Below the pieces are notes generated by a model. It saw only the letters and a program-made list of their open reading frames with translations, ran no database searches and was not told where the DNA came from. The translations under genes and the position numbers were made by a program. A stretch of 25,476 nt of DNA from a virus: positions 1 through 25,476 of IMG/VR virus record IMGVR_UViG_3300006641_000163; one strand, written 5' to 3'. Of the stretch, positions 8,877 through 24,819 are shown one piece after another (position 1 is the first letter of the stretch; each line of letters starts with the position of its first letter).

Positions 8877-8906
8877 AGTATAAGCAATGTGATGTTTCAA
8901 CCGCAA
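8877..8906 (-). promoter_or_regulatory. Leftward promoter with operator-like half-site
   Basis: On the minus strand TTGCGG (8901-8906) and TATACT (8877-8882) are 18 bp apart. The spacer contains CATCACATTGC (8884-8894), matching the recurrent operator core ATCACA-tTG. The promoter would drive the small-gene operon that starts at 8841, under the same regulator as the early rightward units. Confidence 0.55.
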
Positions 8907-9247
8907 GCCCTGTCGACGTAGTCGGCTAACAGCATGCCGGCGCGCTGCAGCAGCTCGTCGTGGTTCTCTGCGCGCTCGATGTGCTTGCGCTTCCAGTCCC
9001 AGAACTGCCAGCACAGGGCGCTGAACTCGGCCGGGTGCTTGGCCGACAGCCACTCGAGGCCGGCGCGGCAGGCGCGGACCTCCAAGCTGCTGTAGCCGTC
9101 GGCGTCCTCGGACTGCGCCAGCTCCGGCAGCAGGCGGCGGAACATGGGGCTGACCTCGCCCCAGGTGAGCTCGGTCTGAGCTCCGCGCCAGTCGTCGCTG
9201 ACGCAAATGCTCACCAGCTCGCCGATCCAGTCGGGCTGAAGTCTCAT
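8897..9247 (-). CDS. Unknown helical protein, 116 aa
   Basis: The ATG at 9247 overlaps the RusA-like stop (ATGA); an in-frame ATG at 9253 is possible. The product is rich in Trp and Leu (WIGELVSICVSDDWRGAQTE, then LPELAQSEDADGYSSLEVRA and LCWQFWDWKRKHIERAE). It has the look of a helical regulator and lies next to the resolvase, where lambdoid phages place antiterminator-type genes, but no antiterminator motif or zinc site is visible. Its 3' end overlaps the -35 region of the promoter at 8877-8906. Confidence 0.6.
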   Translation of the reverse strand: MRLQPDWIGELVSICVSDDWRGAQTELTWGEVSPMFRRLLPELAQSEDADGYSSLEVRACRAGLEWLSAKHPAEFSALCWQFWDWKRKHIERAENHDELLQRAGMLLADYVDRACG

Positions 9248-9627
9248 CGGCATGTCATCCGCACGAGAACCTGGCCGCCCTTGACCGGCTCGCCGACCTC
9301 GAACGACAGCCGCCAGTGGCGGTCGTCGACCCCGGTGGCGTCGGCCAGGCCGTCCAGGCCTGCCTTCATGCTGGCCAGCATGTTGTCCCAGTCCCGGCCG
9401 CGCTTGTCGGGCGGGAAGAAGGTCAGATCGACCGCCAGGCTCGTTTTGCCGGCCAGGACAGCCCGTACCCCTGCCGCGGTCGCGATCGCCCGGCAGCGGG
9501 CCCGGAAAGCCTTCTTGGCCTTGGCTGTGGTGGCCCAGTGCTGGCGAGCGTTGGGGGACAACTTGGGTGAAGGCCAGGGCAGATCCAGGTCAAAAGTTAG
9601 CGTCTGCTCACCAGGCATTTCGGTCAT
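9244..9627 (-). CDS. rusA: RusA-like Holliday junction resolvase
   Basis: This 127-residue protein (start ATG 9627, GGAAGGGGG upstream) has the RusA layout. PSPKLSPNARQHW lies near the N-terminus. The acidic motif RGRDWDN is at residues 77-82 (D79 and D81 as metal ligands), a helix with K88 follows, and GVDDRHW with D101/D102 is near the C-terminus. RusA dimers cut four-way junctions during phage recombination and resolve branched DNA before packaging. A longer frame reaches 9711, but its extra residues cover the repeat region. It is the first gene left of the putative origin. Confidence 0.85.
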   Translation of the reverse strand: MTEMPGEQTLTFDLDLPWPSPKLSPNARQHWATTAKAKKAFRARCRAIATAAGVRAVLAGKTSLAVDLTFFPPDKRGRDWDNMLASMKAGLDGLADATGVDDRHWRLSFEVGEPVKGGQVLVRMTCR

Positions 9628-9648
9628 CGGCAACCCCCTTCCGCTCAG

Positions 9649-9958
9649 CATCCGCAACCTCTTAGAGGGTTGCGGATGAGCGGATGAAGCCGGCCCGCTT
9701 TTCTTACGCATCTCATCCGCACGGATGAGAACCCGCGTATTTGCTTGCTTTCCAGCGTAGTGCCCACTAACTTAGACGCTTGACTTGCGGATGAGATGCG
9801 GATGAGAACCCCGTGCGGATGACCCCAAAAAACGGTTCTCATCCGCAAGCTAGAATTTTGTTGAGCTTTCGCTCGTAAGTCTATGTCAGCACTCATCTTT
9901 TACCTCCAACTACTTCACAACTGTAAATGTCATCCGCAAGCCCCCGTGCGGATGAGAA
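9649..9958. repeat. Cluster of GCGGATGAGAA repeats (iteron-like), candidate origin
   Basis: Eleven copies of a GCGGATGA-core repeat occur in 310 bp. Seven are on the plus strand (starting at 9672, 9680, 9722, 9787, 9798, 9815, 9948) and four on the minus strand (ending at 9655, 9720, 9846, 9937). The longest form is about GCGGATGAGAACC. Two pairs are perfect or near-perfect palindromes: TCTCATCCG-CA-CGGATGAGA at 9711-9730, and arms CATCCGCAAC/GTTGCGGATG at 9649-9678. A repeat-free, AT-richer stretch lies at 9847-9928 and holds an operator-like TTCACAACTGT (9914-9924). Irregular spacing excludes CRISPR. The position beside the primase-helicase gene suggests a replication origin. No gene is convincing between 9628 and 10000. 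Confidence 0.65.
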
Positions 9959-10000
9959 TGTCGTCAAAGTAAGGCTTGGTTGACACTTTCCGTTTACACC

Positions 10001-12031
10001 TCAGTCAGCCGATCTAGACGCTTCCTGCGCCTCGATCGCGAGCTCCGCGGTCATTGAAAGGTGGTCGATCGCCTGCTCTGTGAGCTCCCATCCGTTCTTG
10101 CGATTGGCCCCCTGGACGGCCATTCCGTTGTCCTTCATGGCCTTCATGATGTTGCTCAGAGCGCGCTCGGAGCAGCCCAGGTTGGTGGCCATGACAGGCG
10201 CGCCAGGCCAGCCCTTTTGCATCAGCTTGACCACGTCGATGGCATTGATGGGCTGGCCGTTGATGCGTGATCCGACCTTGATGTCGAGCGGGTTGCCGTC
10301 GAACTGAATGTAGGCGCCGGTGATCTCGACGTCGCACGAGTCCACCACCCCGAGGCCGATCTGGGTAATCTTGAAGCGCTTGGCCTCAGGCATCTCGGCG
10401 TCCTTCATCTTGGTCACCTTGAGCTCCAAGATGCCGCCGGTGCCCTTGACCTGGAACTCCTGGTCCATGGCCGCCTTGAAGGCGCTGGAGCCTCTGGCGC
10501 GGTCCATCTCGTGGCCTGAGTGGTGGACGGTCAGGTTGTGGCAGTGGTACTCGCGCCTGATCTCGTCTGTGGCCTCGATGAAGCGGTTGGCGTCCTGCTG
10601 CTTGTTCTCGTCTCCGTCGCCAAAGTTGCGGGCCAGGGTGTCGATGACGACCAGCGCCGGGATCTGGCCAGTCTCGGCGATCATGCGGTTGATTTCGGCC
10701 TTGAGCTTGTCTGGTGCGTCCGGGTCCAGCATCTGCACGGCGTGGTTGGACTTGAAGAGCGGCGTGTCCTTGGTGATGGCCACCCCAGTGGCCTTGGACC
10801 ATGCTGCAAAACGCCTGGCCAGGCCCTGGTGGCCCTCGCCTGCGATGTAGAACACGGCGCCCTGCTTGACTGGGCATCCGAACCAAGGCGTGCCTGTGGC
10901 CACGCTGCAGGCCATGGACACGGCCACAAAGCTCTTGCCACCGCCTGACGGGCCGTAGAGCATGCCGAGCGCGTCCGCCTCGACGTATCCCTCGATGATC
11001 CAGTCGATGGACTTGATCTCGCCCAGCAGCTCGTGGACGGGGGTGAACAGGGGCTTGTCGGGCAGGATCTCGCCCGTCTCGTTGTCGATCGTGGGTGGAG
11101 GTGCCAGCGGCCGAAACTTCTCCTGCGCCGTGCTCACGCTGCGTGGGATGTCGTTGTAGCGTGCGAGCCAGCGGTCGTCCTTCGGCGCCAGGGAGGCGTC
11201 CATCAGGCCACGCAGCAGGTTGACGATCGCCCCGCCCTTGGCGCCTGAGGCCACCATGCTGGCGGCCACCATGTTCAGGCTGTCGTGCAGGTTCTCGCCG
11301 CGGATGATGTTGGTCGTCAGGATGCGCAGCCGCTCATCCTGCTCGCCCATGTGCATGGACGGTGCGGATGCCTCATGCGCATGCTCTGTGCGCAGGGTCT
11401 CAAGGTCGATGCCGAAGATGGCGGCGGCGTCTTCGAGGCTGTAGCGTGCCTTGGGGTTCCAGTACTCCACGACGTGAGCGAACGGCCCGCTGTCTCGTGG
11501 CTTCTGGTTCTGCCCGATGGGCAGGCGGACGTACCGCACGGCGTTGTTGCCCGACTTGTCCGCCTTGATGTAGCCCCGCTCGGCCATCGCGGTGACCAGC
11601 CGGGTGACGAGCTCGAGGTTCGCGCAGTCGGGGTCCTTGGTGTCGAGCAGGATGCCGATCTGGCGCTTGCCGGGGCTGGTCTCGATGCCCCAGCTTGGCG
11701 TGCCCTGCAGGTCTTCTGGATTGACGTCGTCGGCCACCAGCGCCAGCAGGCGCGTGAAGTGGCTCTTGCGCCGGTGCATGACGCCTTCGAGGGGTCTGAC
11801 CGCGCCCACCGAGAAGTAGGTGTTCTGCCTGCCCCACCCGTCGACCTCGGCCGCGTGCAGGGCTGGGTTGTAGGCCTTGCCTGACCAGCTCGCCTGGTCC
11901 GAGTTGGGGTTGCCGATGAAGGCGTTGACCCACACCGTCGATCCGCGAGGGGCTGCAGCGAGCACCTCCTGGAGGAACTCGCTGTTGGTCACGACTACAC
12001 CATTGTGATGTTCATTGCTGCTGCTGTTCAC
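10001..12031 (-). CDS. Primase-helicase: RepB-like primase plus RepA-like ATPase
   Basis: This is a 676-residue fusion. The N-terminal third matches a RepB/archaeo-eukaryotic-type primase: ALVADDVN (D101/D102), ETSPGKRQIGILLD (117-130) and RYVRLPIGQNQK (166-176). The middle is a RepA-like RecA-fold helicase: Walker A GPSGGGKS (360-367), GEG (398-400), Walker B VVIDTLAR (461-468), then VHHSGH (502-507) and RGSSA (513-517). The C-terminal 70 residues look like a winged helix (VMATNLGCSERALSNIMKAM). It would unwind and prime phage DNA, with iterons just downstream as likely target. The start is GTG 12031, with AAGGG upstream. An operator-like site lies inside codons 7-13. Confidence 0.85.
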   Translation of the reverse strand: MNSSSNEHHNGVVVTNSEFLQEVLAAAPRGSTVWVNAFIGNPNSDQASWSGKAYNPALHAAEVDGWGRQNTYFSVGAVRPLEGVMHRRKSHFTRLLALVADDVNPEDLQGTPSWGIETSPGKRQIGILLDTKDPDCANLELVTRLVTAMAERGYIKADKSGNNAVRYVRLPIGQNQKPRDSGPFAHVVEYWNPKARYSLEDAAAIFGIDLETLRTEHAHEASAPSMHMGEQDERLRILTTNIIRGENLHDSLNMVAASMVASGAKGGAIVNLLRGLMDASLAPKDDRWLARYNDIPRSVSTAQEKFRPLAPPPTIDNETGEILPDKPLFTPVHELLGEIKSIDWIIEGYVEADALGMLYGPSGGGKSFVAVSMACSVATGTPWFGCPVKQGAVFYIAGEGHQGLARRFAAWSKATGVAITKDTPLFKSNHAVQMLDPDAPDKLKAEINRMIAETGQIPALVVIDTLARNFGDGDENKQQDANRFIEATDEIRREYHCHNLTVHHSGHEMDRARGSSAFKAAMDQEFQVKGTGGILELKVTKMKDAEMPEAKRFKITQIGLGVVDSCDVEITGAYIQFDGNPLDIKVGSRINGQPINAIDVVKLMQKGWPGAPVMATNLGCSERALSNIMKAMKDNGMAVQGANRKNGWELTEQAIDHLSMTAELAIEAQEASRSAD
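11996..12011. promoter_or_regulatory. Operator-like site inside start of primase-helicase gene
   Basis: The minus strand reads ACATCACAATGGTGTA, matching the recurrent TATCACAAtGnTG core. It lies about 20-36 bp downstream of the GTG start and encodes His-His-Asn-Gly. Binding here would block elongation rather than initiation. It may be a weaker member of the family. Confidence 0.45.
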
Positions 12032-12189
12032 GCGAGCCCTTCCCTACTTTGGGGGAAGTGTGCCCGGCTGCTGAGGGTGCTGCCATCTTGTTCTTCCACT
12101 GAGAACGCCACACTGTGAAACCTTCGGCAGGCGGGTGTGGTGACCGCTCTTCGGGAGCTACCCTAGCCGAGGCCCAATTCTGTCCGTCA

Positions 12190-12205
12190 GATCACCATTG
12201 TGATA
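12190..12205. promoter_or_regulatory. Operator-like palindrome upstream of primase-helicase
   Basis: The sequence GATCACCATTGTGATA has perfect ATCAC/GTGAT arms. It lies in the 210-bp space between cro and the primase-helicase gene, which also holds a weaker relative at 12109-12121 (CACACTGTGAAA). I could not assign convincing -35 and -10 boxes for the replication gene in this gap; cro readthrough is possible. Confidence 0.55.
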
Positions 12206-12241
12206 CCTGCGCAAAACGATAAGCGGCGCTTGCGCCCGACT

Positions 12242-12253
12242 TCACGCTCGTGA
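12242..12253. promoter_or_regulatory. Operator-like palindrome at the cro stop codon
   Basis: TCACG-CT-CGTGA is a perfect 12-bp palindrome that includes the cro stop codon. It is continuous with GATA on one side, resembling the TATCACA-nn-TGTGATA family. Confidence 0.4.
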
Positions 12254-12442
12254 TACCTTTTTGCCCAGGATCTCGGGGGAGGCGCGTAGCTTACCCCGAG
12301 TGATGTGCTCGATCCTGAGCTGCTGCAAGTGAGGGATGCGGCCACGCGCTTTCCAGTTGGACAGCGTGGGCTGGGTCACGCCCAGCTTGGTGGCTGCTGC
12401 CACCTGCGTGCCGAAGTGCGCGATGAGGTCGTCGAAGTCCAT
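12242..12442 (-). CDS. Cro-like HTH regulator, 66 aa
   Basis: From ATG 12442 the 66-residue product is a single helix-turn-helix domain (TQVAAATKLGVTQPTLSNWK, residues 12-31). It is followed by RIEHITRGKLRAS, the pattern of YdaS/Cro-type phage regulators. It diverges from the CI-like gene and shares the promoter region with it, as in a lysis-lysogeny switch. Its promoter is at 12473-12501; the leader is about 24 nt and no strong ribosome site is visible. The last codons (GTATCACGAGCGTGA) form an operator-like palindrome at 12242-12253. An upstream in-frame extension to 12562 was rejected because it would cross the promoter. Confidence 0.8.
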   Translation of the reverse strand: MDFDDLIAHFGTQVAAATKLGVTQPTLSNWKARGRIPHLQQLRIEHITRGKLRASPEILGKKVSRA

Positions 12443-12472
12443 TTTGTGGAATGCAGAGTTGCGAATTCGCAG

Positions 12473-12501
12473 AGTATAGGGCGTGTGATGTTCACAGACA
12501 A
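12473..12501 (-). promoter_or_regulatory. cro promoter with operator
   Basis: On the minus strand TTGTCT (12496-12501) and TATACT (12473-12478) are separated by 17 bp. The spacer carries TGTGATGTTCACA (12484-12496), a palindrome with arms TGTGA/TCACA. A bound regulator would occlude RNA polymerase. The divergent repressor leader contains an AGAACCT/AGGTTCT hairpin (12509-12529) with a 7-nt loop, and I could not identify the repressor promoter with confidence. Confidence 0.7.
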
Positions 12502-12554
12502 CAACACCAGAACCTGCCGTCAAGGTTCTGACAGCTTCCGCTCGTCGTTTGTCC

Positions 12555-12899
12555 ATGACCAAGAACTTTGAGAAGCTGACGATCGGCGATAGGCTGCGCT
12601 ACCTGATCGAGGTGCGCGAGTACACGCAAGTAGAGCTGGCGGCCAAGATTGGTCTAACCCAAGCCGCCATCTCGAACATCGTGACGAACTCATCTCGCAA
12701 ACCGAGTGCGCCAACCCTGCTCAAGCTCGCTGCCGCACTGCAAGCCAACCCCGACTGGATCCTGACAGGACAGGGCCAGCCGTTTGAGATCAACACCATC
12801 AGCGCCCAGTCCGAGAAAGACCTCCTGGAAGCGTTCCGCAACATGGACGACCAGGCCAAGGTAGCCCTCCTCGCCGCGGCCAAGGCGATGGCCAAGTAA
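12555..12899 (+). CDS. CI-like HTH repressor without peptidase domain, 114 aa
   Basis: The 114-residue product (ATG 12555; TTG 12549 also possible) has an HTH_3/XRE domain with TQVELAAKIGLTQAAISNIV at residues 24-43 and a helix LLKLAAALQANPDWILTGQG typical of CI-like repressors. The C-terminal 35 residues are helical (SEKDLLEAFRNMDDQAKVAL) and suit dimerisation. There is no LexA/S24 Ser-Lys peptidase domain, so RecA-triggered self-cleavage is not expected. It diverges from cro. No strong ribosome site is visible, which fits a weakly translated or leaderless message. It is a prime candidate to bind the dispersed operator sites. Confidence 0.8.
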   Translation: MTKNFEKLTIGDRLRYLIEVREYTQVELAAKIGLTQAAISNIVTNSSRKPSAPTLLKLAAALQANPDWILTGQGQPFEINTISAQSEKDLLEAFRNMDDQAKVALLAAAKAMAK

Positions 12900-12923
12900 C
12901 CCCCGGCCTGCGGGCCCCGACAG

Positions 12924-12982
12924 TATCACAATGCCCATACATTTTTGTCAACCAATCGCCCATGGACTTCACAACTGTGATG
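12924..12982 (+). promoter_or_regulatory. Paired operator sites before first rightward unit
   Basis: TATCACAATGCCCATA (12924-12939) and TTCACAACTGTGATG (12968-12982) lie 44 bp apart, start to start. The second has a perfect TCACA-AC-TGTGA core and runs into TGTAAT (12981-12986) as a -10 box. The matching -35 position (GCCCAT) is poor, unlike the later modules. This region would control the gene at 13021. Confidence 0.6.
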
Positions 12983-13020
12983 TAATCAATCCCGTCAAGA
13001 GATCAACACGGAGCAACGAG

Positions 13021-13218
13021 ATGCACCACAACAGCTTCAACTTCGAGTACGCCAACGCCACGTCCGCCGAGCTCACCGAGTGGGAAGACGCCGCCCTCCA
13101 GCGCGAGTACGAAAAACAGCAACACGAATACGACGAGTACCAGGCGTGGCAAGACGAGCGCTACGAAGAGTCTGTGCGCAAGTCCTACGAAGCCCGCGGC
13201 CTGGCCAACATTTACTGA
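13021..13218 (+). CDS. Small acidic coiled protein, 65 aa
   Basis: The ATG at 13021 follows GGAG by 7 nt and is preferred over an in-frame ATG at 12931, which would translate the operator region. The product is charged and Tyr/Gln/Glu-rich (ELTEWEDAALQREYEKQQHE, then YDEYQAWQDERYEESVRKSY), a single long acidic helix. Acidic small early proteins are often DNA mimics or inhibitors, but nothing here proves that. It is the first gene of the rightward early region. Confidence 0.6.
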   Translation: MHHNSFNFEYANATSAELTEWEDAALQREYEKQQHEYDEYQAWQDERYEESVRKSYEARGLANIY

Positions 13219-13231
13219 TAGGAGAACCAGC

Positions 13232-13579
13232 ATGATCACTCCCAGCATCAAAGCCCTGCGCACCATCACTTCCAACCTGACTGCTGCGCGCCGCGCAAAA
13301 GCCATTCTCAACATGTCTCGAGCAGAACTCGAAGTCCTGCCCGCTGCAGCCGCACGCATCCGCGAGTGCTACAACCCGCCGAGCACGCCCGACCTGCGCA
13401 TGACCGTACTCAATGACTTGCTCTGCACTCACGGCGTAGAAGCATTCCGTCTGCGCGACGGCAGCAACGTCATGTATCTGAACGCCGGCGACACCTACAC
13501 GCCGACGATCGTGCGGATGCGCGGCAACTACTACGTCCGCGACTGGGGCTCGATTGCTGAGCGCCACGCAGCAGAGTGA
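13232..13579 (+). CDS. Unknown early protein, 115 aa
   Basis: Start ATG 13232, with AGGAG 8 nt upstream, 13 bp after the preceding stop. The N-terminal half is helical and basic (IKALRTITSNLTAARRAKAI). The C-terminal half looks like a small beta domain (VEAFRLRDGSNVMYLNAGDT, then TIVRMRGNYYVRDWGS). I do not recognise it. It ends just before the dual-operator promoter at 13582. Confidence 0.6.
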   Translation: MITPSIKALRTITSNLTAARRAKAILNMSRAELEVLPAAAARIRECYNPPSTPDLRMTVLNDLLCTHGVEAFRLRDGSNVMYLNAGDTYTPTIVRMRGNYYVRDWGSIAERHAAE

Positions 13580-13581
13580 TG

Positions 13582-13623
13582 AATCACATTGCTGTTGACC
13601 TGACTTCACACTTGTGATGTAAT
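13582..13623 (+). promoter_or_regulatory. Dual-operator promoter module 1
   Basis: The -35 TTGACC (13595-13600) and -10 TGTAAT (13618-13623) are 17 bp apart. One operator copy, AATCACATTGCTG (13582-13594), sits immediately upstream of the -35. A second, TTCACACTTGTGATG (13605-13619), with perfect TCACA/TGTGA arms, fills the spacer. The two start exactly 23 bp apart. It drives the gene at 13656. Confidence 0.75.
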
Positions 13624-13655
13624 CCTCTTGTCCCAGCAATCAACCGGAGAGCAGC

Positions 13656-13922
13656 ATGAAGGTTTTTGAATTCGACCCCTCCACCGGCAAGCGCGGCGCT
13701 CAGATCGCCGACATCCAGCGTCCCGACTTCCTGCGCAACACCGGCATGGCCAAGTGCGCCCTGCCCCGCGCAGCCCGCGACACCCAGTGGGCCGTGGCCA
13801 CTGAGGCCTTCGGCCGCAACAACGAGCGGATCGAGTTCGACCGGCCGGTGTGCTTCTGCCTCGGTCAGTGGACCGCCGGCACCGACACGACCTGGCAGTG
13901 GTACGCGCTGCTTCCCAACTGA
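13656..13922 (+). CDS. Unknown early protein, 88 aa
   Basis: Start ATG 13656 with CCGGAGAG upstream. The product MKVFEFDPSTGKRGAQIADI, then IEFDRPVCFCLGQWTAGTDT and WQWYALLPN, appears as a small beta-rich domain. No known motif. It is the first gene of a unit that also includes the gene at 13941, 18 bp downstream. Confidence 0.6.
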   Translation: MKVFEFDPSTGKRGAQIADIQRPDFLRNTGMAKCALPRAARDTQWAVATEAFGRNNERIEFDRPVCFCLGQWTAGTDTTWQWYALLPN

Positions 13923-13940
13923 CATCAACCGGAGACCCAC

Positions 13941-14360
13941 ATGCGCAACCTCACCTTCCCCAACGGTTCCAAGTTCTCCCGCTTCGACGACGTCAAGAAC
14001 GCCGTCAGCGGCGCCTACCAGGACGCACTGCGGTGGTCCAAGCGCGACATCGGCGCCGGCTGCTACCGCAGCCGCGGCAAGTGGCTCAAGGCGATCGACG
14101 CCAACGGCAACCTCCTGGCCGGCGACTGCGACTCGTGGGAGTGGGACGGCACGCTCAAGTCCCTGATCGCCGCGATCAACGAGACCAGGTTCGGCGAGCC
14201 CAAGGCCGTGGCCCTGTTCCTCGAGGGCGGCGTCGACTACGCGGCCAGCCTGCGCGACTTCAGCGACGGCGCCTACGACCCGTGGGTCGGCGAGTGGTCT
14301 GTCGCAGTCTGGGAGAAGCCCGAATATCACAATGCTGTTGACAGCACTTCACAGACGTGA
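13941..14360 (+). CDS. Unknown early protein, 139 aa, C-terminus made of operator DNA
   Basis: Start ATG 13941 with CCGGAGA upstream. The product is Trp/Gly/Asp-rich (AYQDALRWSKRDIGAGCYRS, then GDCDSWEWDGTLKSL). The last eleven residues (YHNAVDSTSQT) and the stop codon are encoded by the dual-operator promoter module at 14325-14366, so they were probably acquired with that DNA and are not part of the folded domain. Function unknown. Confidence 0.6.
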   Translation: MRNLTFPNGSKFSRFDDVKNAVSGAYQDALRWSKRDIGAGCYRSRGKWLKAIDANGNLLAGDCDSWEWDGTLKSLIAAINETRFGEPKAVALFLEGGVDYAASLRDFSDGAYDPWVGEWSVAVWEKPEYHNAVDSTSQT

Positions 14361-14366
14361 TGTAAT
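14325..14366 (+). promoter_or_regulatory. Dual-operator promoter module 2
   Basis: The -35 TTGACA (14338-14343) is consensus, the spacer is 17 bp, and the -10 is TGTAAT (14361-14366). TATCACAATGCTG (14325-14337) abuts the -35 and TTCACAGACGTGATG (14348-14362) fills the spacer, 23 bp start to start. The module overlaps the end of the upstream gene and drives the unit at 14424. Confidence 0.8.
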
Positions 14367-14389
14367 CACTTCGTCAGAGATGACACCGG

Positions 14390-14405
14390 CCCGGCGGATC
14401 CCGGG
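14390..14405 (+). promoter_or_regulatory. Leader hairpin shared by three early transcripts (copy 1)
   Basis: CCCGG-CGGATC-CCGGG lies in the 5' leader of the transcript from module 2, flanked by GACACCGG and GACG. Near-identical hairpins occur in the leaders at 15250-15265 and 16600-16614. No U-tract follows, so it is not an ordinary terminator. Confidence 0.55.
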
Positions 14406-14732: not shown

Positions 14733-14746
14733 ACGGAGACATCACC

Positions 14747-15217
14747 ATGCTGTACTTCAAGATCGATGACAACCAGAACGTCGTGGCCATCGCCGAGCAG
14801 ATGCCCGCCGAGCTCAACACCCCCAACGGCTACACGTTGTGGAGCCGCCAGATGGACGGCACGCGCCACGCCGGCTGGCTCAACCGCAACGACATGCCCG
14901 ACATCGAGTACGCGCAGATGATCGCGGCCGGCGCCTCGACCTTCACCGGCAAGCCCTACATCGCGATCGACTCCGGCCCTGACGTGGCGCCCCGCTTCAA
15001 CGTGATCCGCGCCCCTGCGGTCGGCGACGACGTCAGCATGGCCTTCAACGGCGACTACTACCCCGTCGGCAAAATCCTCAAGATCAGCAAGTCGCTCAAG
15101 CAGGTCACCACCAGCAGCGGCCGCAAGTTCTACCGCCGCGGCACCAGCGGCGCCTGGCTCAACGGCTACTTCGCCTTGATCCAGGGCACCGTCAGCCGCC
15201 TCAACCCTGAGTTCTGA
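14747..15217 (+). CDS. Unknown early protein, 156 aa
   Basis: Start ATG 14747 with CGGAGA upstream, in the same unit as the gene at 14424. The N-terminal half is a small domain (YFKIDDNQNVVAIAEQMPAE). The C-terminal half, after VIRAPAVGDDVSMAFNGDYY, contains a basic strand-rich segment (GKILKISKSLKQVTTSSGRK) that looks like an SH3/KOW-like barrel. A nucleic acid-binding role is possible. No catalytic motif is seen. Confidence 0.6.
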   Translation: MLYFKIDDNQNVVAIAEQMPAELNTPNGYTLWSRQMDGTRHAGWLNRNDMPDIEYAQMIAAGASTFTGKPYIAIDSGPDVAPRFNVIRAPAVGDDVSMAFNGDYYPVGKILKISKSLKQVTTSSGRKFYRRGTSGAWLNGYFALIQGTVSRLNPEF

Positions 15218-15239
15218 AGTATCACAACTGTGATATGAT
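15211..15239 (+). promoter_or_regulatory. Promoter with perfect-arm operator
   Basis: TATCACA-AC-TGTGATA (15220-15235) has perfect 7-bp arms, the best single operator in the window. It overlaps a -10 box TATGAT (15234-15239). The -35 region 17 bp upstream (GTTCTG) is weak, so the start site call is less secure than for the dual modules. It drives the gene at 15284. Confidence 0.65.
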
Positions 15240-16086: not shown

Positions 16087-16562
16087 AAGAAGATCTACTC
16101 AACGCCATCGAGATCGCAGCCGTGGCCCACGATGGCCAGGTCGACGGTGCCGGCAGGCCGTACCTCCTGCACTGCCTGGCCGTGATGCGCACGGTGGCCA
16201 AGAAGCTGCCGAACAACATTGACGCCCAGGTGGCCGCGGTGCTGCACGACGTGCTCGAGGACACGTCGTTGACGACGCACAGTCTGCGTCGGCACGGCGT
16301 CAGCGAGGAGGCAATCTTCCTTGCGGTCATCCTCAGTCGCGAGCCCGACGAGACTTACGAGCAGTTCATCGGCACCATCATCAAAGCCGGCCCGGTGGCC
16401 ATCACGATCAAGCTCGCCGACATCAAGCACAACCTGTCGCGCATCGACGGCCTGCCGGCTGAACGCCGCGCCAGGCTCGAGCCACGCTACCGGGCAGCCA
16501 AAAAGAAGTTGACTGTTGCACTCAAGTATCACAATGGTGTTGCACAGACTTCACAACTGTGA
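16083..16562 (+). CDS. RelA/SpoT-type HD hydrolase, candidate (p)ppGpp hydrolase
   Basis: From GTG 16083 (GTGA overlap, GAGGG upstream) the product is 159 residues, the size of stand-alone small alarmone hydrolases such as MESH1. The motif order fits: AAVAHDGQVDGAGRPYLLH with H30, VAAVLHDVLEDT with H55, D56, E59 and D60, and TIKLADIKHNLSR with D113 and N117. There is no synthetase domain. Members with this set use a metal to remove pyrophosphate from (p)ppGpp. Lowering the stringent response during infection is a plausible role, but related HD proteins can hydrolyse other nucleotides. The last twelve residues are encoded by operator module 3. Confidence 0.75.
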   Translation: MKEDLLNAIEIAAVAHDGQVDGAGRPYLLHCLAVMRTVAKKLPNNIDAQVAAVLHDVLEDTSLTTHSLRRHGVSEEAIFLAVILSREPDETYEQFIGTIIKAGPVAITIKLADIKHNLSRIDGLPAERRARLEPRYRAAKKKLTVALKYHNGVAQTSQL

Positions 16563-16569
16563 TGAAATC
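16528..16569 (+). promoter_or_regulatory. Dual-operator promoter module 3
   Basis: TATCACAATGGTG (16528-16540) precedes the -35 TTGCAC (16541-16546). The 17-bp spacer holds TTCACAACTGTGATG (16551-16565), and the -10 is TGAAAT (16564-16569). The operators again start exactly 23 bp apart. The module overlaps the end of the HD-hydrolase gene and drives the unit at 16633. Confidence 0.75.
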
Positions 16570-17677: not shown

Positions 17678-17701
17678 CCAGCATCACAATGCTGATACAC
17701 T
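17674..17701 (+). promoter_or_regulatory. Promoter with operator in spacer
   Basis: The -35 TTGACC (17674-17679) and -10 TACACT (17696-17701) are 16 bp apart, and the spacer is filled by CATCACAATGCTGATA (17682-17697). The operator also forms a CAGCAT-CACA-ATGCTG inverted repeat. It drives the gene at 17748 and overlaps the end of the upstream gene. Confidence 0.7.
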
Positions 17702-18141: not shown

Positions 18142-18167
18142 GGGCAATATCACATTGCCCATTTTTT
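18142..18167 (+). terminator. Rightward terminator containing an operator-like core
   Basis: GGGCAAT-ATCAC-ATTGCCC is a perfect 7-bp stem with a 5-nt loop, followed by ATTTTTT. It also contains TATCACATTG (18148-18157), matching the operator core. It lies 20 bp before the start of the Sak4-like gene and no promoter is visible in between, so the recombination genes would depend on readthrough. Confidence 0.75.
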
Positions 18168-18186: not shown

Positions 18187-18879
18187 ATGGCAATCACCCT
18201 TACTTCCACCAAAGACAGCGCCGCGCTCAACGGCCTGAAGTTCCTGGTCCACGGCCCTGCTGGCGCCGGCAAGACCTCGCTCTGCGCCACGACCGGCGAG
18301 CCCACTGTGATCATCAGCGCCGAGTCCGGCCTGCTGTCACTGCGTGGCGTCGACATCCCGGTCATCGAGGTCAAGACTTTGGACCAGCTCTACGAGGCCT
18401 ACGACTTCGTCGTGAACACCGAGCAGGGCCAGGCCTTCAAGTGGGTCTGCCTGGACTCCATCTCGGAGATCGCCGAGGTGGTGCTCAACCACGAGAAGAA
18501 GGTCGCGAAGGATCCGCGCCAGGCCTACGGTGCGCTGGCCGAGAAGATGACGGATCTGATCCGCGCCTTCCGCGACCTGCCCGGCCGCAACGTGTACTTC
18601 TCCTGCAAGCAGGAGCGCGCCAAGGACGAGCAGTCGGGCGCGATGCTGTACTACCCCGCCATGCCCGGCAACATGCTCAAGCAGGGCGTCGGCTACTTCT
18701 TCGACTTCGTGTTCGCCCTGCGCATCGAGAAGGATGCGGACGGCAACCCGACCCGCTGGTTGCAGACCAGCCGCGACTACAACTACGAGGCCAAGGACCG
18801 CTCCGGCAGCCTCGAGATGTTCGAGTCCCCCGACCTGTCGGCAATCGCCGCCAAGGTCATCTCCACCATCGCCAACTAA
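18187..18879 (+). CDS. Sak4-like RecA-fold ATPase (AAA_24), recombinase candidate
   Basis: From ATG 18187 (GGAG upstream) the product is 230 residues. Walker A is GPAGAGKT (23-30), followed by TVIISAESG (40-48). Walker B WVCLDS ends at D90-S91, and an LQTSRDYNYEAKDRSG segment lies near the C-terminus. This is the single-domain RecA-like ATPase family of phages that includes Sak4, a single-strand annealing or recombination protein. The following DUF669 gene supports this, since Sak4 proteins are often paired with an SSB. An in-frame upstream ATG at 18172 lacks a ribosome site. Confidence 0.8.
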   Translation: MAITLTSTKDSAALNGLKFLVHGPAGAGKTSLCATTGEPTVIISAESGLLSLRGVDIPVIEVKTLDQLYEAYDFVVNTEQGQAFKWVCLDSISEIAEVVLNHEKKVAKDPRQAYGALAEKMTDLIRAFRDLPGRNVYFSCKQERAKDEQSGAMLYYPAMPGNMLKQGVGYFFDFVFALRIEKDADGNPTRWLQTSRDYNYEAKDRSGSLEMFESPDLSAIAAKVISTIAN

Positions 18880-19406: not shown

Positions 19407-19430
19407 TTCCCGCAACAACAGGAGAAGCCT

Positions 19431-19807: not shown

Positions 19808-19814
19808 CCCGTGT

Positions 19815-19913
19815 AGGCCCGCAAGGGCCTGCAGCGGTGAGGGGCCGGCCGGGGAGGGCCGCCCCGCGCGCCAGTAACAGGCCCCTCACCCCTGCAACGA
19901 CACGAGGAGTGTC
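19815..19913 (+). promoter_or_regulatory. Structured leader with hairpins and a ribosome site in a loop
   Basis: Three nested signals precede the nuclease start at 19917. AGGCCC-GCAA-GGGCCT (19815-19830) is a 6-bp stem with a GNRA loop. GGTGAGGGGCC/GGCCCCTCACC (19836-19846 and 19880-19890) is an 11-bp perfect inverted repeat with a 33-nt GC-rich loop. GACAC-GAGGA-GTGTC (19899-19913) places the GAGGA ribosome site in a hairpin loop. No U-tract follows, so translational or transcript-processing control is more likely than termination. Confidence 0.6.
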
Positions 19914-19916
19914 CCC

Positions 19917-20975
19917 ATGGCCACAGTGCCCGAACCCATGCACACCACTGCCGAGATGATCTACCGGGCCTACGAGTCCGACGCAGACGACGGCCACCGC
20001 CCGCACCTGGGCGCATCCCTGATCGGCCACGCTTGCGAGCGCTACCTGTGGCTGACCTTCCGATGGGCCGGATCGAAGAAGCATTCAGGCCGGATGCTGC
20101 GCCTGTTCAAGGCCGGCAATGACTTCGAGCCGCGCATCGTGGCCGAGCTACGCCGCATCGGAGTCGAGGTCCACGATGTTGCGCCGGACGGTAAGCAGTG
20201 GCGCGTGTCGAGCATCGGCGGCCACTTCGCTGGCCACATGGACGGCGCCGCAAGGGGATTCCCCGAGGCGCCCAAGGCGTGGTCGGTCGTCGAGTTCAAG
20301 ACCCACAACGCCAAGTCTTTTGCGGCCTTGCTGAAGGATGGTGTGCAGAAGTCCAAGCCCCAGCATTACGCGCAGATGCAGACCTACATGGGCCTGACCG
20401 GCATGGTCCGCGCCATGTACATCGCGGAGAACAAAGACACCAGCGAGCTCTACGCTGAGTGGGTCCACTTTGACGAGGTCGAGTTCGCCAAGATCATGGC
20501 CCGCGCCGAGCGCGTGATCACTGCGGCCGAGCCGCCGCTGCGCTGCTCGAACGACCCGAGCTGGTACGTCTGCAAGATGTGCGACTTCCACCCCCTGTGC
20601 CATGGCGAGGAGGCGCCCGACGTCAACTGCCGCACCTGCGCGCACAGCACGCCCGTGGTCGAAGGCGAGGACGGCAAGTGGAACTGCCGCGAGTTTGGCG
20701 AGGTGGGCCTGATCGCCCAGCGTGAGTCGCACCAGTGCAGCACGCACCGCTACATCCCCATCCTGCTCGAGCGCTTCGCGACGCAGAAGTACTATGTCAA
20801 TGGTGATGTCGTGTACGAGCACGAGCACGGCACGTTTGCCAACGGCCAGGGCGACGGCGCGCTGAGCTCGCTGGAGATCAAGGCCTGCGAGCAGAAGGTG
20901 ATGCTGGCTGATGCGTCGAAGCTCAAGGGCGAGCTGCAGAAGCAGGGCTTCTTCGATGCGAGGGTCGTGAAGTGA
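19917..20975 (+). CDS. Cas4/RecB-like PD-(D/E)XK nuclease with Cys cluster
   Basis: The 352-residue product from ATG 19917 has the RecB-family nuclease core: GHMDGA with D109, VVEFKTHN with E126 and K128, and PQHYAQMQTYM (148-158, Q-x3-Y type). One Cys before the core (C40, GHACERYLW) and three after it (C219, C222 and C228 in CKMCDFHPLC) match the 4Fe-4S ligand order of Cas4 and AddB. A second set (C238, C241, C257, C274) may bind zinc. It would resect DNA ends for the Sak4-like ATPase and DUF669 protein upstream. Its stop overlaps the next GTG. This is a phage exonuclease by context; no CRISPR is present. Confidence 0.8.
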   Translation: MATVPEPMHTTAEMIYRAYESDADDGHRPHLGASLIGHACERYLWLTFRWAGSKKHSGRMLRLFKAGNDFEPRIVAELRRIGVEVHDVAPDGKQWRVSSIGGHFAGHMDGAARGFPEAPKAWSVVEFKTHNAKSFAALLKDGVQKSKPQHYAQMQTYMGLTGMVRAMYIAENKDTSELYAEWVHFDEVEFAKIMARAERVITAAEPPLRCSNDPSWYVCKMCDFHPLCHGEEAPDVNCRTCAHSTPVVEGEDGKWNCREFGEVGLIAQRESHQCSTHRYIPILLERFATQKYYVNGDVVYEHEHGTFANGQGDGALSSLEIKACEQKVMLADASKLKGELQKQGFFDARVVK

Positions 20976-21235
20976 ATCGCGAAGAGCTGGCCGAGGAGTT
21001 CGGCGAAGAGCTTCTGTTCCTGGATCCGCCGGAGTCCTTCGATCGCTGCATCGTTGGCGTGGCGCACCGCTGCGGCATGGAGCCGGTCGTGGTGTACGAC
21101 CAGGACGAGGTAATCAGCAGCCTGATGCTGGGGGGCATGGACCGCGAAGAGGCCGAGGAGTGGTTCAGCTTCAACACTGCCGGCGCCTACGTCGGGCCGC
21201 GCACGCCAATGTTCCTGATCAAGGGGGTCGCATGA
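20972..21235 (+). CDS. Small phage protein, 87 aa, GTG start
   Basis: The GTG at 20972 overlaps the nuclease stop (GTGA). The product NREELAEEFGEELLFLDPPE, then FDRCIVGVAHRCGMEPVVVY and MDREEAEEWFSFNTAGAYVG, ends TPMFLIKGVA. It belongs to a frequent type of phage protein with the pattern EEAxEWFxFNTxGAYVGxxTP. Function unknown. Its stop overlaps the helicase start by ATGA, so the three genes are coupled. Confidence 0.7.
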   Translation: MNREELAEEFGEELLFLDPPESFDRCIVGVAHRCGMEPVVVYDQDEVISSLMLGGMDREEAEEWFSFNTAGAYVGPRTPMFLIKGVA

Positions 21236-22842
21236 AGCTGCGCGACTACCAAGCCCGCGCCCTGGACGAGCTCTGGGAGTGGTTCAGCCGGCACGAGGGC
21301 GGCAACCCCATCGTCGAGGCCTGCGTCGGCGCCGGCAAGAGCCTGATGATCGCGGCCCTGGCGCAGCGCGCTGACGCCCAGTATCCGGGCACCAGGGTGC
21401 TGGTGCTGGTCCACCAGAAGGAGCTGCTCGAGCAGAACATCGAGAAGCTGCTGAAGATCTGGCCGACCGCGGACGTGGGCCTGTACTCGGCGGCCATCGG
21501 CAAAAAGCAGATGGGGTGCCAGCTCACCTACGCCACGATCGGCAGCATCTACAAGCAGGCGCACCGCCTCGGCCGCATCGACATCGTGCTGGCCGACGAG
21601 TGCCATCTGATCAACCCAAAACAGACTGGGATGTGGCGCACATTCCTGGCTGACCTGACCAAGTACAACCCGTACACCCGCGTGATCGGCTGGACAGGCA
21701 CCCCATTCCGCGGCAACGGCGTGTGGGCCACGGCCGGAGAAGAGCCGCTGTTCACCAACGTCGCCACCAGGGTGACGATGAAGGAACTGCTGGGCTTGAA
21801 GTTCCTGTCCCCACTGGTGCCAGCCCCGACCGTGGCCAGGGTGGACGCACGCGGCGTGCGCACATCCGGCGACGACTACGTCGTCAGCGAGCTGGCCAAG
21901 GTCACCGACAGGGCCGACCTTGTCGAGGCCACATGCCAGGAGATCGTCGAGCTTGCCCGCGACCGCAAGCGGTGGCTGGTGTTCGCCGTGACGATCGAGC
22001 ACGCCGAGCACGTCAGGGACGCGCTACAGCGCCGCGGAGTGACGGCTGAGGTGGTGAGTGCGGAGACCCCGAAACAAGAGCGTGCAGCCCTGATTACGGC
22101 CTTCCGCGGGGGCAGGATCCGCTGCCTGGTGAACGTGGCCGTGCTGACCACCGGCTTCGACGTCCCGGAGGTGGACTTCATAGCCCTGCTGCGTGCGACC
22201 AAGAGCCCGGTGCTGTACGTCCAGATCGCCGGCCGCGGGATGCGGATCGTCGACGGAAAGACCGACTGTCTGTGGGCCGACTTCACCGACACCACAATCG
22301 AGATGGGCCCGGTCGACGAGGTCAAGGGACGCATGCCCAGCACCAAGCGCAAGGGCGAGGCGCCCAGCAAGTTGTGCCCCGAGTGCGGCAGCAAGAACCT
22401 GGCGGCCGCGACGCAGTGCGTCGACTGCAACTTCAAGTTCCCGGAGCCTGAGCGCATCAAGCACGGCGACCAGGCCTCGAGCGCGGCCATCCTCAGCAGC
22501 CAGGCCAAGACGATGATGGAGATGGTGCCAGTCACCGACGTGCGCTATCGGCTGCACCAGAAAGACGGCGGCACCGAGAGCCTGCGCGTGGAGTATTACG
22601 ACGGCTTCCAGCGCGTGGCTTCTGAGTGGGTGTGCCTCAGCCACGAGGGCTACGCACGCAAGAAGGCCGAGGCCTGGTGGGCCATGCGCGCCAAGATCGA
22701 CGCCGTGCCTCACGACACCGAGGAAGCCCTCAAGTGGCTGGAGTACGACGACCAGATCCTGCGCAGGCCCGCGGCCGTGATCGTCAACCGGGCCGGGCAG
22801 TACCCGACCATCGTGTCTCACCAGTGGGACCAGCCAGCATGA
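21232..22842 (+). CDS. Superfamily 2 DEAD-like helicase with C-terminal zinc ribbon
   Basis: From ATG 21232 the product is 536 residues. Motif I is ACVGAGKS (30-37), motif II ADECH (121-125), motif III TGTPF (155-159), motif V TTGFDVP (306-312) and motif VI QIAGRGMR (331-338). After the helicase core a zinc ribbon, CPEC...CVDC (C382, C385, C396, C399), is followed by a roughly 135-residue C-terminal domain rich in Trp and Tyr. It is a UvrB/ResIII-like DNA helicase typical of phage recombination or replication modules, probably working with the nuclease. An ATG 72 bp upstream in frame was rejected because it lies within the previous gene. Confidence 0.85.
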   Translation: MKLRDYQARALDELWEWFSRHEGGNPIVEACVGAGKSLMIAALAQRADAQYPGTRVLVLVHQKELLEQNIEKLLKIWPTADVGLYSAAIGKKQMGCQLTYATIGSIYKQAHRLGRIDIVLADECHLINPKQTGMWRTFLADLTKYNPYTRVIGWTGTPFRGNGVWATAGEEPLFTNVATRVTMKELLGLKFLSPLVPAPTVARVDARGVRTSGDDYVVSELAKVTDRADLVEATCQEIVELARDRKRWLVFAVTIEHAEHVRDALQRRGVTAEVVSAETPKQERAALITAFRGGRIRCLVNVAVLTTGFDVPEVDFIALLRATKSPVLYVQIAGRGMRIVDGKTDCLWADFTDTTIEMGPVDEVKGRMPSTKRKGEAPSKLCPECGSKNLAAATQCVDCNFKFPEPERIKHGDQASSAAILSSQAKTMMEMVPVTDVRYRLHQKDGGTESLRVEYYDGFQRVASEWVCLSHEGYARKKAEAWWAMRAKIDAVPHDTEEALKWLEYDDQILRRPAAVIVNRAGQYPTIVSHQWDQPA

Positions 22843-23033
22843 CCAAGACCGAACTGAAGATCCGCATCGACATGCACCGCCAAATGCTCAAGGGACTCGA
22901 GAGCATCGAGGTCGGTTGCAGGACGTGCGAGCACTACGCGATGCCGGAGTGCGACAAGTGGAACGCAGCACCGCCGCCCGACATCGTGGCCAGCGGATGC
23001 GACGAGTGGCGCTGGGACGGAATACCTTTTTGA
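22839..23033 (+). CDS. Small Cys-containing phage protein, 64 aa
   Basis: Start ATG 22839 overlaps the helicase stop (ATGA). A helical N-terminus (KTELKIRIDMHRQMLKGLES) is followed by CRTCEHYAMPECDKWNAAPP and GCDEWRWDGIPF, giving four Cys that probably bind zinc. The ending GCDEWxxDxIPF is common in phage proteins of this size. Function unknown. Confidence 0.7.
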   Translation: MTKTELKIRIDMHRQMLKGLESIEVGCRTCEHYAMPECDKWNAAPPPDIVASGCDEWRWDGIPF

Positions 23034-23045
23034 CGGGAGCCAGAC

Positions 23046-23267
23046 ATGACGATTGACATGGTCAACAGCCCGCCGCACTACGCAAAGGGCGACATTGAGT
23101 GCATCGACGCGATTGCCGTGGCGACGGCAGATCTGCAAGGCATGGAGGCGGTCTGCACTGCCAATGCGATGAAGTACCTCTGGCGCTGGAAGTTTAAGAA
23201 CGGCGTCCAGGACTTGGAGAAAGCGCGCTGGTACATCGAACGACTGATCCAGGAAATGAGCAAGTGA
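23046..23267 (+). CDS. DUF3310 protein, 73 aa
   Basis: Start ATG 23046. The product has the DUF3310 signature: VNSPPHYAKGDIECIDAIAV at the N-terminus, then ANAMKYLWRWKFKNGVQDLE and a final helix ARWYIERLIQEM. DUF3310 proteins are common in phages, sometimes labelled nucleotide kinase-like without firm proof. The stop overlaps the next ATG by one base. Confidence 0.8.
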   Translation: MTIDMVNSPPHYAKGDIECIDAIAVATADLQGMEAVCTANAMKYLWRWKFKNGVQDLEKARWYIERLIQEMSK

Positions 23268-23389
23268 TGAAGAACCTCGCGAGCATGCTGGCCATTGCCA
23301 GCCTATGGTTCCTGTCGCTGATCGGAATGGGCTTCATCGCTCGCTCAATGTATGAGCTAGTGATGATCGGCTGGAGGTCGTGGCCATGA
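23267..23389 (+). CDS. Very small membrane protein, 40 aa
   Basis: This 41-codon frame from ATG 23267 overlaps the previous stop, and its own stop overlaps the next start. The product MKNLASMLAIASLWFLSLIG, then MGFIARSMYELVMIGWRSWP, has one hydrophobic helix at about residues 5-24. Exact packing in the operon makes it likely real. A role in membrane signalling or host takeover is possible but unsupported. Confidence 0.5.
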   Translation: MKNLASMLAIASLWFLSLIGMGFIARSMYELVMIGWRSWP

Positions 23390-23604
23390 GCGAGATCCTC
23401 ACCGAGCAAGAGCTGATGGTGATCAGCGACGCCAGCACCAGGCCCACCATGCTGGCCTGGCTGCAGTCCAATGGCATCCCCTACCTCGTCGCCCGATCGG
23501 GCTGGCCGCGTGTGCACCGCAAGGCGATCGAGCGCGCACTGGGCGTGGTGCCGGACGAGAAGCCGGCCAAGGACTTCGTCTTCAACTTCGACGGCCTCAA
23601 GTGA
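23386..23604 (+). CDS. DUF4224 protein, possible excisionase, 72 aa
   Basis: The ATG at 23386 has GGAGG 8 nt upstream and is preferred over GTG 23380. The product matches DUF4224: ILTEQELMVISDASTRPTML, then LQSNGIPYLVARSGWPRVHR and AIERALGV. These small proteins usually sit just before a tyrosine integrase and are thought to act as directionality factors. The stop overlaps the integrase GTG (GTGA). Confidence 0.8.
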   Translation: MSEILTEQELMVISDASTRPTMLAWLQSNGIPYLVARSGWPRVHRKAIERALGVVPDEKPAKDFVFNFDGLK

Positions 23605-24662
23605 GAAAGCGCATCCCCCACTTCCACGAGAAGCGCGGCAAGAACTGGGTCGCGTACTACCACGTCGTGCGCAAGGGCGACAAGGTGGTGTGGACCAGCC
23701 TGGGCACTGACCGATCGGCAGCGCTGCGCAAGTGGGCTGAGTTCGAGATGCAGCCGGTGCCGGCTGAGGCGGGGTCGTTCGACGCGATCATCGGGCAGTA
23801 CATGAAGTGGGCCCGGGCCGCGGTCGAAGACGGCACCCTGGCGCCTCGCACCTACGAGGACCGGGAGAAGTACCAGAAGGTCATGCTCACCGTGTTCGGT
23901 GGCAAGCCCTTCGAGGCCATCGAGTCCCAGCACGTCAGGCTCTACATCGACAAGCGCAGCGCCAAGATCAGCGCCAAGAAGGAGATGCGGTTCCTGTCGG
24001 TGCTCTGGAACTGGGCACGCGAGCGCGGCATCACGCGGCTGTCGAACCCGGTGGCCGGCGTGAAGATGCCCAAGGAGGAGGGGCGCGACATCGAGGTCCG
24101 GCCGCAGGACTACTGGCTGGTCTGGGAGTGCGGCGACCAACTGGTCAAGGACGTCCTCGAGCTGGCCGCCCGGCTGGGCACGCGCCCGCAGGAAGTGTTC
24201 GACCTGTCGTGGGACAAGATCGACCTGGCCGCAGCCCCGATGACCGTCAAGGTATGGCAGAACAAGGTCAAGAGCTGGCGCACCGTGATCGCAGACCCCG
24301 AGCTGGAGGCCATCCTGGCCCGCCTGAGAGGCGATCTGGCCCGTCCTAAGGGCAAGGTACTGGTCGACGAAAACGGCGCAGCCTTGAACCCGCTGGGGGC
24401 CTTCCGCTACCGCTTCCTGCAGGCCCGAACCGATGCCATGGCCAAGGCCGAGGCGGAGGGGCTGGACCACCAGGACTTCCAGCTCCGGGACCTGCGGCCG
24501 ATGGCGGGCCTGGCGATGCTGGATGCGCAGGGCATGGACGCGGCGCGCCGACTGCTGGGTCACAGCACCGAGCGGATGACCGCCCACTACACCACGCAGC
24601 GCCGCGGCCAGGTCTCGGAGGCTGCCAAAATTGTTAGAAGTACTTCTAACCCATCACAATGA
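23601..24662 (+). CDS. int: Tyrosine recombinase (phage integrase)
   Basis: The 353-residue product from GTG 23601 has an N-terminal arm-binding domain, a core-binding domain (about 60-150, FDAIIGQYMKWARAAVEDGT) and a catalytic domain. Catalytic residues are R195 (LGTRPQEVFDLSW), K222 or K224 in the basic turn, R299 in LRDLRPMAG, H321 in LLGHS and Y330 in AHYTTQ. The usual His of H-x-x-R is R296. It would recombine attP with the host tRNA-Cys gene; a tRNA-Cys 3' fragment lies 27 bp downstream. Its last codons and stop (CCA TCA CAA TGA) lie in an operator-like palindrome. Confidence 0.9.
   Translation: MRKRIPHFHEKRGKNWVAYYHVVRKGDKVVWTSLGTDRSAALRKWAEFEMQPVPAEAGSFDAIIGQYMKWARAAVEDGTLAPRTYEDREKYQKVMLTVFGGKPFEAIESQHVRLYIDKRSAKISAKKEMRFLSVLWNWARERGITRLSNPVAGVKMPKEEGRDIEVRPQDYWLVWECGDQLVKDVLELAARLGTRPQEVFDLSWDKIDLAAAPMTVKVWQNKVKSWRTVIADPELEAILARLRGDLARPKGKVLVDENGAALNPLGAFRYRFLQARTDAMAKAEAEGLDHQDFQLRDLRPMAGLAMLDAQGMDAARRLLGHSTERMTAHYTTQRRGQVSEAAKIVRSTSNPSQ
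24633..24650. repeat. Perfect 18-bp palindrome near attP
   Basis: GTTAGAAGTACTTCTAAC is a perfect palindrome inside the last integrase codons. Half-sites recur at 24801-24808 (GTTCTAAC) and 24866-24873 (GTTAGAAG), on the other side of the tRNA fragment. This pattern suits arm-type integrase or excisionase binding sites. Confidence 0.55.
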
Positions 24663-24665
24663 TGG
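24651..24665. promoter_or_regulatory. Operator-like palindrome at integrase stop
   Basis: CCATCA-CAA-TGATGG is a perfect inverted repeat and contains the ATCACAATG core. It includes the integrase stop codon. With the next site (24810-24819) it forms a pair flanking the tRNA fragment. Confidence 0.5.
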
Positions 24666-24688
24666 AGTTCGTAAGTGCTTGATTTCAT

Positions 24689-24737
24689 TGGAGGCGGGAG
24701 TCGGAATCGAACCGGCGTCCACGGCTTTGCAGGCCGG
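24689..24737 (-). other. attP core: 3' part of tRNA-Cys
   Basis: On the minus strand the 3' end of a tRNA-Cys can be read: CCGGC stem, CTGCAAA anticodon loop (GCA at 24728-24730), GCCGT, a 4-nt variable region, T-arm with TTCGATT loop, and TCCCGCC-T-CCA. U73 and the 4-nt variable region fit tRNA-Cys. The T-stem has one mismatch. No matching GGCGGGA 5' acceptor strand or D-arm exists, so this is a fragment, not a gene. It lies 27 bp from the integrase stop, the usual place for an attachment core that restores the host tRNA on integration. Confidence 0.8.
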
Positions 24738-24809
24738 TGCCACCGGAGGCCCGAGAGCCAGTATCCATGCGGGTTTCCGGCCGGTTCGGCTGGTCGGCTC
24801 GTTCTAACA

Positions 24810-24819
24810 TATCACAATG
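24810..24819. promoter_or_regulatory. Operator-like site downstream of attP
   Basis: TATCACAATG is preceded by TTCTAACA. The 18-bp TTCTAACATATCACAATG (24802-24819) matches TTCTAACCCATCACAATG (24644-24661) at 16 of 18 positions, so the two flank the tRNA fragment as direct repeats. No convincing -35/-10 pair is seen. The rest of 24738-24891 shows no gene. Confidence 0.45.

Follow-up and report, generated by a model that had tools for sequence, protein, structure and literature searches.

A dispersed 16-bp operator sequence in a phage record, probably read by Cro and CI and in part resembling the stoperators of L5

In phage L5 and the cluster A phages, 20-30 dispersed sites are found in Pleft and mostly in short intergenic gaps off promoters, oriented with transcription (PMC6550527, PMC9283540). 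The repressor bound at these sites blocks elongation, and reversal of the sites abolishes repression (PMC9283540, PMC6550527). L5-type repressors bind as monomers to 13-14 bp sites without dyad symmetry, and the TipsytheTRex repressor uses two DNA-binding domains (PMC9283540). In D29, a lytic L5-type derivative, the repressor was lost and the sites were kept (PMC5712189). Lambda has six operators and phiKO2/N15 have five, which in phiKO2/N15 are 16 bp long (PMC4997575). T1-like phages (T1, Stevie and TLS) have ~20 asymmetric repeats between genes, all oriented alike with respect to transcription, which their authors compared to stoperators (PMC4319613, PMC11447400). Here, a repeated operator-like sequence was studied in IMG/VR virus record IMGVR_UViG_3300006641_000163, the whole of which, 25,476 bp, is referred to as the window. 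Stoperators are, to our knowledge, understood in detail only for actinobacterial phages whose repressor is unusual. The repeats in the window are probably 16-bp operators, with the half-site TATCACAA, for both Cro and CI, and the dispersed asymmetric copies among them are probably L5-type stoperators for CI. In the sequence-only reading, they had been attributed to a genome-wide regulon of one small helix-turn-helix (HTH) repressor. Comparative genomics bore out a regulon of the L5 kind, which is well supported because the sites exceed shuffles, are conserved at orthologous junctions, lie at promoters and junctions and are oriented with transcription; the single repressor is probably wrong.

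The described sequence was present at all 19 places listed for it. The copy regarded as the best, the perfect palindrome TATCACAACTGTGATA (15220..15235, no strand), indeed had 0 mismatches; it overlaps a -10-like TATGAT and is kept in the relatives covering the region. The sequence TATCACAnnTGTGATA with up to 3 mismatches occurred 7 times in the window versus 0.23 times per shuffle (maximum 2). The corresponding values were 9 versus 0.13 for ATCACAATG and, with both strands counted, 8 versus 0.05 for TCACAnnTGTGA. For an independent matrix, 74 sites from relatives only were used, and the window and its near-twin G001 were left out; because these 74 sites had originally been located using the window's matrix, the training set is not wholly independent of the window. 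This dependence does not touch the controls made by reversing or shuffling. With this matrix, 16 sites in the window reached at least 13 bits versus 0.17 per shuffle, and 13 sites reached at least 15 bits versus a shuffle mean of 0.05 (maximum 1). The relatives were 57-59 kb phages and fragments obtained by searching viral contigs for Cro and CI, and their records were scanned whole. At a threshold of at least 14 bits, each of the 57-59 kb relatives contained 20-32 sites, and the reversed controls contained 0-1. The repeat is thus real, with an excess over controls in both the window and the relatives.

The motif recurs as described, but as two forms rather than as a single core. The near-palindromic form (CTTCACAnnTGTGATG, TATCACAnnTGTGATA) lies over the spacer and -10 element of rightward promoters (12967, 13604, 14347, 15220 and 16549); at 13604, 14347 and 16549, a -35 element, a 17-bp spacer and a -10 element are present, and the operator runs into TGTAAT or TGAAAT. 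The asymmetric form, TATCACAA|TGCTTATA, consists of a strong and a weak half-site and is found in promoter spacers, between the Shine-Dalgarno sequence and the start codon, before the Shine-Dalgarno sequence, and in a terminator. The reverse complement of its second half, TATAAGCA, is still half-site-like, and therefore the asymmetric form may be read as a weak dyad. In a check for dyad symmetry, the 16-bp site proved to be a dyad whose one half is weak, and some copies were complete palindromes. CI, Cro or both would be expected to bind duplexes with TATCACAATTGTGATA or TATCACAATGCTTATA. The copies at 12475 and 12240 have low matrix scores, yet they are conserved in relatives.

The placement of the sites was studied across the relatives, where collapsing near-identical contexts left 150 distinct sites; gene calls were approximate, made with a simple purpose-written codon-usage finder. 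Of the 150 sites, 112 were intergenic or at gene edges, in DNA of which 91% is coding. In 19 distinct asymmetric sites, the ATG of TATCACAATG coincided exactly with a start codon preceded by a Shine-Dalgarno sequence (for example, AGGAG-TATCACA-ATG). Promoter-like elements surrounded 25 of the 68 other distinct asymmetric sites, versus 2.2 when the flanks were shuffled. Orientation with and against transcription was 19/0 for the start-codon sites, 24/0 for those in promoter spacers and 42/5 for the remaining intergenic ones (p = 2.5e-8), so that 85 of the 90 distinct asymmetric intergenic copies with a clear direction pointed with transcription and 5 against it. A first count of 64/0 was withdrawn because its class definition excluded opposing sites, and it was replaced by this recount. 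Matches inside genes that encode RYHVAVLANAK were rejected as conserved coding sequence.

The junction before the sak4-like gene carried a site in 12 of 15 genomes, always co-directional, at varying positions: -39/-42, in a terminator-like hairpin; -27/-28, before the Shine-Dalgarno sequence; or -7, at the start codon. Since a site is always kept at this junction while its position shifts, its presence there is probably under selection. Within the window, the asymmetric site at 18148-18163 lies within a terminator-like hairpin at 18142-18160 (feature 18142..18163, plus strand) that precedes the sak4-like gene (18187-18879). The hairpin, GGGCAAT-ATCAC-ATTGCCC-ATTTTTT, encloses the site. In the clade without CI, a hairpin is kept (GGGCAG...CTGCCC-ATTTTTT) and the site is gone.

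Two divergently transcribed genes encode the candidate regulators. The cro-like gene (12242..12442, minus strand) encodes a 66-aa protein with the recognition helix TQPTLSNW. It belongs to the P22_Cro family, matching PF14549 with an E value of 1.5e-15 and 57.1 bits against a gathering score of 30.2, and its relatives in the PDB are 3bd1 and P22 Cro (1rzs). The CI-like gene (12555..12899, plus strand) encodes a 114-aa protein with one HTH_3 domain (PF01381, E 9.8e-12), the recognition helix TQAAISNI and a helical C-terminus. An AlphaFold2 model of moderate confidence (pLDDT 78) likewise contained one HTH and a helical C-terminus, and neither the model nor a profile search revealed a peptidase or cleavage domain. 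In alignments, the two recognition helices have Q-x-x-x-S-N in common. The gap between cro and CI contains one weak operator, and no second conserved palindrome that could be specific for CI was found there among the relatives compared. An inverted repeat in this gap, CAGAACCT-n7-AGGTTCTG (12508-12530, perfect 8-bp arms), was considered as a CI-specific operator and rejected since it is absent from relatives.

The presence of CI was then compared with that of individual sites. No CI match was found in L004, L005, L006, L007 and L010, where Cro is kept; for L007, whose sequence ends ~110 bp upstream of cro, this status was taken from its close similarity to L006. In L009, CI is reduced to its first 22 residues and Cro is also kept. 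The longer genomes G003, G004, G006 and G007, which contain L004, L005, L009 and L010, have Cro as their sole HTH_3-type match. A site lay within 100 bp after cro in every one of the 19 CI-bearing loci, as against 0 of 7 loci that cover upstream DNA and have no CI match (L004-L007, L010, L014 and L102); L008 is uninformative, as it stops within cro. In L004-L007, the copy at the rep start, 200 bp further on, is still present, and L009, with its CI stub, retains the site after cro. At 9740-9890 of L009, CI is cut after ~22 codons next to GCGCTACTGTT direct repeats, which looks like a recent loss of the repressor. The clade without CI retains the promoter operators 8879, 12475, 12967, 13604, 14347, 15220, 16549 and 17682 wherever the region is covered, and it loses 12190, 12240 and 18148. 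An integrase was matched in five CI-bearing records, and no match was found in G006 (59 kb).

Because the promoter operators outlast CI and the two tested junctions track it, Cro and CI sharing a half-site is favored over one repressor. The simplest reading would be that Cro keeps the promoter operators in place and that CI does so for the junction sites, with the start-codon copies left unexplained. According to the mechanism proposed, both proteins would read the 16-bp operators via the common half-site. The near-palindromic copies, together with asymmetric copies in promoter spacers, would stop initiation at most early units; Cro could act on these promoter operators by itself in lytic growth, and CI could do so in the lysogen. 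The copies at junctions, at start codons and in a terminator, with the strong half-site upstream, would be L5-type stoperators, at which CI would stop RNA polymerase that got past the promoters, so that the prophage would be silent along its length. What the comparisons establish is where the sites lie and how they point, their excess, their conservation and their occurrence together with CI and Cro; recognition of the sites by the two proteins, the split of roles between these and the elongation block are predicted.

Sites of this kind were also sought in more distant phages. Besides this group, a search of viral contigs with ACTTCACAnnTGTGATRTA matched unrelated phages of 46-49% G+C, in which the palindrome is present in 2-4 copies near a gene for a Cro-type protein, either 45% identical to Cro or a 59-aa protein with KQxVVSNW. 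No CI match was found in them within the stretches covered. This separate group (L080, L081, L091, L099, L108 and L121) has tiny Cro/YdaS-like proteins and shares the palindromic operator in few copies. L069, whose Cro is 49% and whose CI is 45% identical, retains 20 sites, versus 1 in its reversed control. L070, whose Cro helix is RPQNYTVW, had no excess of sites over the reversed control. No dispersed operator of another sequence was detected by palindrome and repeat searches in L070 or by a palindrome search in L014.

Several observations weigh against the proposed mechanism. The start-codon sites remain in the clade without CI, which is unexpected for a role with CI only, although the divergence there is small. 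Lineages without CI are few, approximately four (the L004 clade, L010, and two distant ones, L014 and L102), and the loci in which the correlation with CI was first seen were also those used to test it. Matches inside genes are also mostly co-directional (26/6), and therefore coding or composition, rather than regulation, may explain part of the orientation bias; another part arises because the ATG and the extended -10 TG lie within the site. The near-twin G001 (L029-L031, 57.9 kb) has an intact CI, yet neither protein nor Pfam-profile comparison gave an integrase match; it may integrate by another system, its sequence may have a gap, or the integrase may have been lost recently. Alignment of CI against GTDB genomes gave no match and thus no prophage with this CI. 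With Cro, the matches obtained were all short and partial, and no excess of sites accompanied them. Close cultured relatives were not found, the only matches being one of sak4 DNA and portal matches below 35% identity.

It is unlikely that Cro alone reads all sites, CI having some other target and the dispersed sites tuning lytic expression without any prophage silencing. Such an arrangement would account for sites remaining in phages without CI, start-codon sites included, and for the same palindrome in unrelated phages having just a Cro-type protein. However, it leaves the loss of the cro-rep and sak4 junction sites from phages without CI unaccounted for, the cro-CI gap offers no conserved second palindrome for CI, and the Q-x-x-x-S-N residues are in CI as well. 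Alternatively, only the promoter copies might be operators, and those at junctions and start codons might be weak internal promoters or promoter relics, with no block to elongation. About one-third of the distinct asymmetric intergenic sites do lie within promoter-like spacers, and the extended -10 TG belongs to the site. Nevertheless, no -10 fits the 19 sites between the Shine-Dalgarno sequence and the start codon, the terminator copy at 18148 lacks a -10, and the sak4 junction retains its site despite the shifting position, which makes this explanation quite unlikely. The co-directional orientation and exact start-codon register would also suit a motif working in RNA, as a translational or processing element at start codons, or a site for a host regulator. 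This is very improbable given that numerous copies occupy promoter spacers and are outside the transcript of that promoter, that palindromic copies exist, and that phages with a very different G+C content have the site plus a Cro-type protein, whereas L070, with another Cro helix, is without the site. Joint recognition by Cro and CI, with CI also acting at stoperators, is therefore preferred.

The remaining sites in the window are as follows. The sites span more than the 16 kb first assigned to them, since two start-codon sites had been overlooked: CATCACAATGGCAATA (1432..1447, minus strand), whose ATG starts gene 1138-1440, and GGAGA-CATCACC-ATG (14740..14755, plus strand), at the start codon of gene 14747-15217. 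Placement in rightward promoters, in the cro promoter, in a terminator and by the putative attP was upheld. On the minus strand, asymmetric sites lie at 8879..8894, in the leftward promoter TTGCGG-18-TATACT and retained in relatives; at 11995..12010, at the start of the rep-like gene; and at 12190..12205 (TATCACAATGGTGATC), at the cro-rep junction. The degenerate palindrome TATCACGAGCGTGAAG (12240..12255, minus strand) is at the cro stop codon and has equivalents in many CI-bearing loci. The operator CATCACACGCCC (12475..12490, minus strand), followed by the -10 TATACT, lies in the cro promoter TTGTCT-17-TATACT and is conserved in most cro-CI gaps. The listed copy at 9914, CTTCACAACTGTAAAT (9913..9928, no strand), is identical in relatives and weak (10 bits); its status is doubtful. 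It falls in the interval separating the RusA-like gene from the rep gene, where several GCGGATGAG / CTCATCCGC repeats at 9660-9960 possibly represent an iteron-like or origin region. A further match at 20793 scored by matrix and was not counted, being a conserved coding stretch (YVNGDV).

On the plus strand, an asymmetric site after CI (12924..12939) lies ahead of the first right-arm unit. Over it, a leftward promoter-like element, TTGACA-18-GATACT (12922-12951, minus strand, 10 of 12), faces into CI and possibly gives an antisense transcript. The near-palindromic operator at 12967..12982 is fused to the extended -10 TGATGTAAT. Three near-palindromic operators, like the preceding one without assigned strand, each follow an asymmetric plus-strand site: 13604..13619, in TTGACC-17-TGTAAT, follows 13582..13597, which overlaps the start of the -35 TTGACC (13595-13600); 14347..14362, in TTGACA-17-TGTAAT, follows 14325..14340, which overlaps the start of the -35 TTGACA (14338-14343); and 16549..16564, in TTGCAC-17-TGAAAT, follows 16527..16542, which adjoins the -35 TTGCAC (16540-16545) and is lost or altered in G003, G004 and L006. 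The asymmetric site at 17682..17697 (plus strand) lies in the spacer of TTGACC-16-TACACT and is conserved in most relatives. Two more asymmetric plus-strand sites lie over the integrase stop codon (24652..24667) and downstream of the tRNA-like putative attP stretch (24810..24825). Just after the integrase, the minus strand of 24690-24745 resembles the 3' part of tRNA-Cys (CTGCAAAGCCG...GGTTCGATTCCGACTCCCGCCTCCA); it is probably the attP core and could identify the host, and ARAGORN called no complete tRNA there.

It is tentatively suggested that a lambdoid-type CI/Cro pair independently evolved oriented-stoperator silencing outside actinobacterial phages, with a dyad-binding CI blocking elongation directionally, some sites doubling as start codons or sitting in intrinsic terminators, and descendants without CI dropping stoperators while Cro preserves the promoter operators. 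If this is true, an ordinary CI/Cro switch would suffice to build genome-wide silencing, with a small HTH repressor on a dyad site. Comparing the natural relatives with and without CI offers an immediate way of telling sites for the lysogenic state from sites for lytic growth, and the reason for stoperator orientation is directly testable because the halves of a near-palindromic site can be swapped.

Among known systems, the T1-like phages differ in being lytic and in having a repeat of another sequence (consensus VWATAGCAYKWWTTGYTAAAAV) without a known reader. The phage P1 C1 and phiC31 repressors, each a single repressor with many scattered operators, share that feature and differ in repressor family and operator sequence. 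With the lambdoid phages (lambda, P22 and N15/phiKO2), the system shares divergent cro and repressor genes, a Cro of the P22-Cro family and 16-bp operators as in phiKO2/N15, and its half-site TATCACA is close to the TATCACC of lambda. It differs from them in its 20-30 sites, the one weak operator in the cro-CI gap and the junction sites; its CI also has no C-terminal cleavage domain, although some lambdoid relatives lack one too. The likeness to L5 lies in the 20-32 dispersed, mostly intergenic sites per 57-59 kb genome and in their orientation with transcription (85 versus 5), and L009/G006, like D29, lost the repressor and keeps sites. Unlike in L5, the site is a 16-bp imperfect palindrome rather than an asymmetric monomer site, CI has 114 aa and one HTH rather than ~180 aa and a second DNA-binding domain, and the phages have many operator-bearing early promoters and a Cro-type partner. 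Therefore, the system resembles L5 by anatomy, yet it is not a member of that group, having a dyad site and a single-HTH CI with a helical C-terminus.

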